Below are positions 14,656-15,689 of a stretch of 49,686 nt of DNA, in pieces. Within the stretch, counting starts at the first letter, position 1, and each line of letters opens with the position of its first letter. The notes under the pieces are model-generated. The model made no database searches. It was not told the DNA's origin and saw only the letters and a list, made by a program, of their open reading frames with translations. The DNA lies in NCBI GenBank assembly GCA_021821445.1, contig JAKACK010000006.1:1-49686 (forward strand), in the 5' to 3' direction. A program made the position numbers and the translations under genes. This stretch comes from Microcaldota archaeon (GTDB lineage Archaea; Micrarchaeota; Micrarchaeia; Micrarchaeales; Micrarchaeaceae).

Positions 14656-15000
14656 TTAACTAATAATATTTGCTCCTTTAAGCTTTTTAAATTCTTCTAA
14701 TTCATAGATCTTAGAACCGCCTTTTATTAATTCAGACTTTGCTTTATCTGAAAAATCTATTGCAGTTATATTTATTTTGTGATCTATCTTGCCAATGGAA
14801 AGAACTTTTCCAGGTACTATAACATTATCTCCTTCTTTTGTAAATTTATTTAATTTGTATAGATTTACAGTTATTCTTTTTCTCTTTGAAACGGATAATA
14901 TCTTAGCAACCTTTCCCCACATTTGTTCATGATCGCCTTTCTCATTCTTTGCAAACTCTATCCAATCTTTAATATCTTTTCTTTCAACATTAATTTTCAT
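14656..15000 (-). CDS. rpl18e: Large-subunit ribosomal protein L18e
   Basis: 114-aa archaeal/eukaryotic homologue of bacterial L15-type fold. Motifs are 'RKRITVNLYKLNKFTKEGDNVIVPGKVLSIGKIDHKINI' (quoted in part: 'VIVPGKVLSIGKI') and the C-terminal 'LKGANIIS', close to the usual GSNVRII. The ORF-track start at 15042 lies inside tRNA-Leu and is spurious. ATG 15000, four nt after GGTGAA, is preferred over ATG 15003. The gene follows tRNA-Leu by 17 nt. Confidence 0.94.
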   Translation of the reverse strand: MKINVERKDIKDWIEFAKNEKGDHEQMWGKVAKILSVSKRKRITVNLYKLNKFTKEGDNVIVPGKVLSIGKIDHKINITAIDFSDKAKSELIKGGSKIYELEEFKKLKGANIIS

Positions 15001-15017
15001 CATTTTCACCTTAAAAG

Positions 15018-15117
15018 TGCAGGGGGTGAGATTTGAACTCACGTAGCCCTAAGGCACAGAATTTCCAAACATGCATTCCTTAGTCCTGCGCATTTGACCA
15101 AACTCTGCCACCCCTGC
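15018..15117 (-). tRNA. tRNA-Leu, anticodon read as AAG, with a 15-nt intron
   Basis: The reverse strand folds as a class II tRNA: acceptor GCAGGGG/CCCCTGC with A73, Leu-type D arm ending CAAATGC, anticodon stem CAGGA/TTCTG, variable arm TGCCTTAGGGCTAC and T arm GTGAG-TTCAAAT-CTCAC. Acceptor and D-arm match archaeal tRNA-Leu. Removing 15 nt at position 37/38 leaves loop CTAAGGA, so the anticodon is AAG. Mature length would be 85 nt; CCA is not encoded. It lies between rpoD and L18e on the same strand, so it is probably cut from the operon mRNA. Confidence 0.88.
15063..15077 (-). other. 15-nt intron in tRNA-Leu at canonical position 37/38
   Basis: The intron AATGCATGTTTGGAA gives a complete bulge-helix-bulge: exon nucleotides 32-35 (CUAA) pair with intron UUGG through C-G, U.G, A-U and A-U. 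Three-nt bulges (GG/A and AA/A) carry the cut sites on either side, and a short inner hairpin closes the intron. This is the substrate shape of archaeal tRNA splicing endonuclease. The geometry supports both the boundaries and the AAG reading. Confidence 0.75.
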
Positions 15118-15122
15118 ATTAT

Positions 15123-15689
15123 TTATTTAGCAACCTTTGATAATTCTTTAATTTCTTCGCTTAATATATCTAATGATTTGCTTATTATTGCTTTTGATGA
15201 CATTTGGCCAAATGCTTCCACATAGAACTTAAATGAATTGTCATTTATCTGCTCATATGTTACCAGTCCTGGTTGGAATTTTACGTGCTTCAATGCAGAT
15301 CCTACAATGGCTTTGCCATCTAATCTGAGCTTTTCTTTTTCACCTAATTTCATTATAGGTATATTATCAATTGCGACTTTTATATTTTCATCAGTGCTTT
15401 TTAGGTCTTTAGAATAAACTGTTCCAGGCCCCGTTGCATCAAGTGTAAATAAAATTTCGTCGCTATCTATAATCTTATCTGGAGTTGCTAATGGTATAAG
15501 ACCTATCCTGTGTGCAATGTACTCATCGAAAAGTGCACTTGAATTTTCATAGACTGTCACACTGTCAATTGCAAAACATTTTACACTATTTATTGCGGTC
15601 CTTCTGATTGCATTCGCAAACGTAGTTGAAACTCCTGAAAGGGTGAACTCAAATACTTTATCATTAGATTGAATAATATCTACATCCAT
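15123..15689 (-). CDS. rpoD: DNA-directed RNA polymerase subunit D (Rpb3/alpha-like), short form
   Basis: Assembly-platform subunit of archaeal RNA polymerase. 'FANAIRRTAINSVKCFAIDSV' and 'HRIGLIPLATP' are the alpha/Rpb3 dimerisation signatures. At 188 aa it lacks the roughly 60-80-residue cysteine-rich insert that carries the Fe-S cluster(s) in many archaeal D subunits; only Cys38 is present. It leads the rpoD-tRNA-L18e-L13-S9-rpoN-S2 operon. Confidence 0.95.
   Translation of the reverse strand: MDVDIIQSNDKVFEFTLSGVSTTFANAIRRTAINSVKCFAIDSVTVYENSSALFDEYIAHRIGLIPLATPDKIIDSDEILFTLDATGPGTVYSKDLKSTDENIKVAIDNIPIMKLGEKEKLRLDGKAIVGSALKHVKFQPGLVTYEQINDNSFKFYVEAFGQMSSKAIISKSLDILSEEIKELSKVAK

Follow-up and report, generated by a model that had tools for sequence, protein, structure and literature searches.

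A tRNA-Leu with an AAG anticodon in the rpo3-rpl18e operon of a micrarchaeal genus, and its recurrence in other small-genome archaea

Introduction

A tRNA-Leu gene in an archaeal operon appears to carry A at the first anticodon position, and this raises two questions: whether position 34 is A once the intron is removed, and how such a tRNA would read CUU and CUC. Reviews describe archaea as being without any ANN anticodon (PMC8007984, PMC8072771, PMC11066159), and the few departures from this have been interpreted as gains of single species (PMC6000648). Bacteria and eukaryotes nearly always modify A34 to inosine, I34 (PMC8072771). The gene lies in a window of 49,686 nucleotides, the whole stretch of DNA that was analyzed, from a Microcaldota archaeon of the family Micrarchaeaceae. 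The initial annotation, made from the letters of this window, stated that archaea avoid A34, which matches the reviews but overlooks a published leucine exception (PMC6000648).

The tRNA-Leu Gene and Its Splice Register

The gene sits inside an operon, between two reading frames that we take to be rpl18e, named from resemblance by eye and operon order, and rpo3, named from the order of the archaeal S9 operon (Table 1). The Rfam tRNA model RF00005 aligned completely (model positions 1-71) to 15117-15018 of the minus strand, with 44.4 bits and an E-value of 2.7e-6; ARAGORN did not call a tRNA-Leu(AAG) gene at 15018-15117. Read directly, the acceptor stem is GCAGGGG/CCCCUGC followed by A73, the D stem is GCA/UGC, the anticodon stem is CAGGA/UUCUG, the T arm is GUGAG/CUCAC, and the variable arm is long. 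The full tRNA fold, A73 and the long variable arm, together with orthology to the tRNA-Leu(GAG) gene that adjoins rpo3 in relatives, place it among archaeal tRNA-Leu genes.

Table 1. Coordinates, strands and supporting evidence for the operon, the tRNA-Leu gene parts and related loci.
Feature	Position	Strand	Basis
tRNA-Leu(AAG) gene with intron	15018..15117	-	Rfam RF00005; arms read directly
5' exon, tRNA positions 1-37	15078..15117	-	Sequence; boundary shared by congeners and GAG relatives
Anticodon A34 (15081), A35, G36	15079..15081	-	Sequence; pattern match ...GGACTAAG at 15079-15099
15-nt intron AAUGCAUGUUUGGAA, in which UUGG pairs with CUAA (32-35)	15063..15077	-	Sequence; relatives have orthologous introns there
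3' exon, first base A38	15018..15062	-	Sequence; A38 comparison
rpo3 (RNA polymerase subunit D, presumed), directly upstream	15123..15689	-	Synteny and species-tree marker; 80/85 family genomes
rpl18e (ribosomal protein L18e, presumed), directly downstream	14656..15003	-	ORF; resemblance by eye and operon order
Candidate deaminase of the genus	L072:1228-1764	-	PF00383; below TadA profile cut-off, fold nearest dCMP deaminases
Other tRNA-Pro(AGG) copies (congeners, G030, G031)	L151, L153, L155, L105		

Between the halves of the anticodon stem lie 22 nt, CUAAGGAAUGCAUGUUUGGAAA, equal to a 7-nt loop plus 15 nt. The precursor reads CUAAGG, then the intron, then A. Pairing of CUAA with UUGG (C-G, U-G, A34-U and A35-U) forms the central helix of a bulge-helix-bulge (BHB) motif with 3-nt bulges GGA and AAA, and a cut at 37/38 therefore leaves the exon loop CUAAGGA with the anticodon AAG. 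The gene can be classed as a BHB-intron tRNA by its 4-bp central helix and two 3-nt bulges at 37/38, with a weak inner helix. The helix, bulges and register of the initial description all stand, but its words "perfect" and "textbook" were too strong because the inner helix has only about 2 bp. Free-energy folding of the naked RNA gave -19.3 kcal/mol for the cloverleaf versus -39.9 kcal/mol for the favored fold; since the naked precursor favors another fold, minimum-energy folding was not counted as support.

The predicted splice register is instead fixed by comparison with relatives. Both congeners have an orthologous intron of 13 nt with the same site and central helix, and many GAG relatives carry an intron at the identical 37/38 site with an identical central helix. 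Opposite position 34, the intron carries U where the genus has A34, U or C where relatives have G34 and, by eye, U where G030, a species of another genus, has A34; the automated parse was wrong for G028, G029, G030 and G031. The central helix is less regular in a Woesearchaeota AAG gene. Elsewhere, many AAG genes lack an intron at 37/38, and in these CUAAGGA is read directly. Other registers, such as those giving a GGA (Ser) or AAA (Phe) anticodon, were ruled out by the congeners and the intronless homologues, and the earlier concern that other splice sites might yield a different anticodon was checked: no other register fits the congeners. A tRNA-Leu with A34, a 15-nt intron at 37/38 and the exon loop CUAAGGA, as first proposed, is thus borne out by Rfam, the congeners and the intronless homologues.

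An error of sequencing or assembly, or another register with a different anticodon, might still be suspected, since the genomes are mostly drafts and ARAGORN missed the gene. However, three congeners assembled independently of one another share A34, as do 18 archaeal records, many of which lack an intron at this site, and Pro-AGG likewise appears in independent genomes. We regard such an artifact as extremely improbable and, given these independent genomes, as excluded in practice.

Probable Replacement of G34 in the Leucine and Proline Boxes

We compared the operon across the 85-genome family; the genomes analyzed are largely metagenome assemblies. In the genus, G000, G071 and G072, three species about 70% identical in Rpo3, all have AAG in the operon Leu gene, as does G030, whose three congeners have GAG; about 67 further genomes, nearly all of the remaining family members with a readable gene, have GAG. 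A search of the phylum (301 genomes) gave no further AAG gene among the matches listed, and 29 class genomes lie outside those.

The genome containing the window encodes Leu tRNAs with UAG, CAG, UAA, CAA and AAG anticodons and Pro tRNAs with UGG, CGG and AGG; neither tRNA-Leu(GAG) nor tRNA-Pro(GGG) was found in it. Because this genome is 84.8% complete, the congener G071 (one contig, 96% complete) was chosen as the test set. Its 44 tRNA genes hold Leu UAG, CAG, UAA, CAA and AAG and Pro UGG, CGG and AGG, again with neither GAG nor GGG, and ordinary G34 readers serve its other boxes (Arg GCG, Thr GGU, Val GAC, Ala GGC, Gly GCC and Ile GAU). G071 yielded neither a Ser GGA nor a Cys tRNA, which shows that tRNA detection is imperfect. 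A pattern that does find GAG in G028, G031, G059 and G073 gave no match to it in the Leu-A34 genomes. On the G071 set, the pattern search and the gene list of the 84.8%-complete genome, A34 replaces G34 rather than adding to it, and the GAG gene that the initial annotation had asked about was indeed not found in either of these two genus genomes.

An A34 tRNA-Pro in the genus had been overlooked by the earlier reader. tRNA-Pro(AGG), with the loop UUAGGGA, occurs in five family genomes: that of the window (L026, C6:8393-8465), both congeners, G030 and G031. The first of these copies shares 97% identity with the Pro CGG tRNA; the genus gene may therefore stem from duplication of a CGG gene and not from GGG. 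The tRNA-Pro(AGG) of G307 and G314 sits some 3 kb away from the Leu gene, close to the GGG site of relatives, which suggests an in-place GGG to AGG change in those genomes.

Position 38 differs along with the anticodon. Every AAG gene has A38, that of G030 once its intron is removed, whereas 45 sampled GAG genes of the family have C, U or G38; both independent A34 switches inside the family show A38. From these alignments, the change to A may be a tuning of the 32-38 pair, and its accompaniment of A34 suggests that the anticodon loop was retuned. GC content around the gene is 0.27-0.38 in family A34 genomes versus a median of 0.48, in a comparison that ignores kinship and counts some genomes twice.

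Several other tRNA genes in the genus are unusual. An intron-bearing tRNA-Ile(UAU), reported only from Nanoarchaeum and Korarchaeum (PMC6000648), is present in the genome of the window (L013, C37:31942-32029) and in G071 (L251). No third CAU tRNA able to serve AUA was found in G071; in the genome of the window, a 5.8-kb contig has a third CAU tRNA (L001, C25:5550-5621) that was not seen in G071 and is possibly contamination or an Ile2 tRNA. Many tRNA genes in this genome have T-loop or D-loop introns rather than introns at 37/38 (L030, L032, L033, L034, L035, L036, L038 and L039), and the elongator Met, Trp and Ser(UGA) tRNAs (L016, L023 and L031) have long introns with C/D-box-like sequences by eye. 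A weak tRNA-like match of 19 bits, with an AUC-like loop and without an acceptor stem (L037, C11:37897-37954), is likely a fragment or chance match.

Recurrence in Other Small-Genome Archaea

A pattern scan of GTDB species genomes returned 19 Leu-AAG records, 18 of them archaeal; a Dinoroseobacter match (L177) was set aside as a chance bacterial match. The archaeal records comprise four of Micrarchaeota type (two of them family members, one labeled Marsarchaeota), seven of Parvarchaeota type (one labeled Parvarchaeota, six Nanoarchaeota), six from Aenigmatarchaeota and one from Woesearchaeota. No GAG copy was found by the same pattern in any Leu-AAG genome of the scan. Several of these records also have Pro-AGG, and one Aenigmatarchaeota genome has Pro-GGG; beyond the family, Pro-AGG turned up in three MAGs of Parvarchaeota type and two additional micrarchaeal ones. 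In an Rpo3 tree of 54 rows, with the Parvarchaeota and Aenigmatarchaeota cases outside it, Leu A34 has at least four origins, each forced by well-supported branches. The same G34 to A34 change in tRNA-Leu has arisen several times in small-genome archaea.

Two further observations concern these records. Several Aenigmatarchaeota AAG genes contain a long T-loop insertion of uncertain extent. The recurrence across DPANN archaea had also been overlooked by the earlier reader.

Deaminases and the Inosine Question

If an unrecognized archaeal enzyme converted A34 to inosine, these tRNAs would read U, C and A like their bacterial and eukaryotic counterparts, for which this is the usual fate of A34. 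In favor of this reading, all three genus genomes encode a deaminase of the CDA superfamily (178 aa, HAE and PYCTRC motifs; PF00383, 44.5 bits), the sole deaminase found there, and the loop bases C32 and A38 recall those of TadA substrates. The TadA profile, however, scored no higher than 17.5 bits in any A34 genome, with controls positive in 12 of 14, so the TadA/ADAT enzyme that would mark an I34 tRNA was not detected. The genus deaminase itself reaches 16 bits with this profile against a cut-off of 150, and the nearest structures to its AlphaFold model (pLDDT 86.6) are phage and human dCMP deaminases, with TadA ranked lower. Its homologues are scattered through many GAG genomes, and it was not found in the A34 species G030 and G031. 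A whole-genome PF00383 search came back empty despite the 44.5-bit direct score, and that negative was not counted.

Judged by its model and distribution, the genus deaminase appears to resemble dCMP deaminases and does not track A34; by profile, distribution and fold it was rejected as a TadA-like A34 modifier. The inosine hint of the initial annotation, with its suggested TadA-like deaminase, thus found no support. Both the Leu(AAG) and Pro(AGG) loops here have G37, a base that prevented E. coli TadA from acting on AAG (PMC11066159). Nor do these archaea show any apparent sign of the rise in CUU and CUC that accompanies I34 in Lactobacillales (PMC13249217), in a comparison confounded by GC. 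We consider inosine formation unlikely.

Separately, the GAG genome G059 encodes a 158-aa nucleoside deaminase (L210:1480-1956) with HAE and CEPCSMC motifs and 80.6 bits to the TadA profile; it was rejected as an A34 modifier, its genome being a GAG one.

Codon Usage and Proposed Decoding

CUU is the commonest CUN codon in our sample (680/1,194). Relative CUC usage did not differ between seven A34 and ten G34 genomes (Mann-Whitney p 0.41), so codon usage was dropped as a discriminator of A34 from I34; CUC is apparently depleted in G071, G307 and G312. The absence of a codon-usage footprint could also mean that the AAG gene is drifting or little used, with U34 tRNAs reading CUU/CUC and CCU/CCC by superwobble, as unmodified UNN tRNAs are able to read whole boxes in mitochondria (PMC8879553). 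Against this, the gene is intact in every arm across the three genus species, despite only about 70% identity in Rpo3, the intron helix is kept, position 38 co-varies and AAG is the only Watson-Crick candidate for CUU. Superwobble seems to us quite improbable.

Experiments with an archaeal tRNA body in E. coli indicate what an A34 tRNA can do. With AAG and G37, inosine was undetectable and CUU and CUC were read at 87:13; unmodified AGG without inosine read CCU and CCC at 56:44 (PMC11066159). We favor a one-for-one replacement of G34 by A34 in the leucine and proline boxes, read mostly as unmodified A34, as the likely explanation. Under this proposal, tRNA-Leu(AAG) would have arisen in place from the ancestral archaeal GAG form in the rpo3-rpl18e operon, and the tRNA-Pro(GGG) of the genus would have been replaced by tRNA-Pro(AGG). 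The precursor would be cleaved at the BHB after position 37 and ligated to give CUAAGGA, and the mature tRNA, if expressed, would be charged with leucine via A73 and the long variable arm and serve as the dedicated CUU/CUC reader. Unmodified A34 would pair in Watson-Crick fashion with U3 and by a weaker A-C wobble with C3, and the AGG tRNA would read CCU and CCC more evenly. The exchange of G34 for A34 was probably tolerable because low genomic GC makes CUC and CCC rare.

More broadly, it is probable that DPANN archaea repeatedly evolved A34 in the Leu and Pro boxes in place of G34, either unmodified with a retuned 32-38 loop or as inosine made by a deaminase unrelated to TadA. Either reading, if true, would end the rule that archaea decode U- and C-ending codons with G34 only. 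A34 kept for two amino acids with TadA undetected would be a natural, stable case of authentic-A34 translation, which is very rare, and the independent lineages would serve as evolutionary replicates for asking when G34 is exchangeable for A34 and what makes inosine necessary elsewhere.

Comparison with Known Systems

We found no report of archaeal Pro-AGG or of clade-wide A34 in the open-licence literature; both the clade-wide recurrence and archaeal Pro-AGG appear to be new, a novelty that is uncertain because the search covered open-licence papers only. Among bacteria, tRNA-Leu(AAG) of Lactobacillales and Leuconostocaceae likewise replaces GAG, the two never occurring together, but it carries I34 in Streptococcus (PMC13249217, PMC8007984), whereas the genes here are archaeal and TadA was undetected. 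Mycoplasma tRNA-Thr(AGU), with unmodified A34, and a Salmonella mutant tRNA-Pro with A34, both cited in PMC11066159, read C3 and U3 without inosine and differ in being bacterial, the first from another box and the second a laboratory mutant. The nearest archaeal parallel is tRNA-Leu(AAG) of Ferroplasma acidarmanus fer1, which also arose from GAG by a G to A change, with GAG absent and codon usage unchanged; it was found in one species of 167, treated as species-specific, has no intron and came with no report of Pro-AGG (PMC6000648). Unlike that case, the A34 tRNA-Leu described here is genus-wide, recurs in several DPANN lineages, is paired with Pro-AGG and always has A38.
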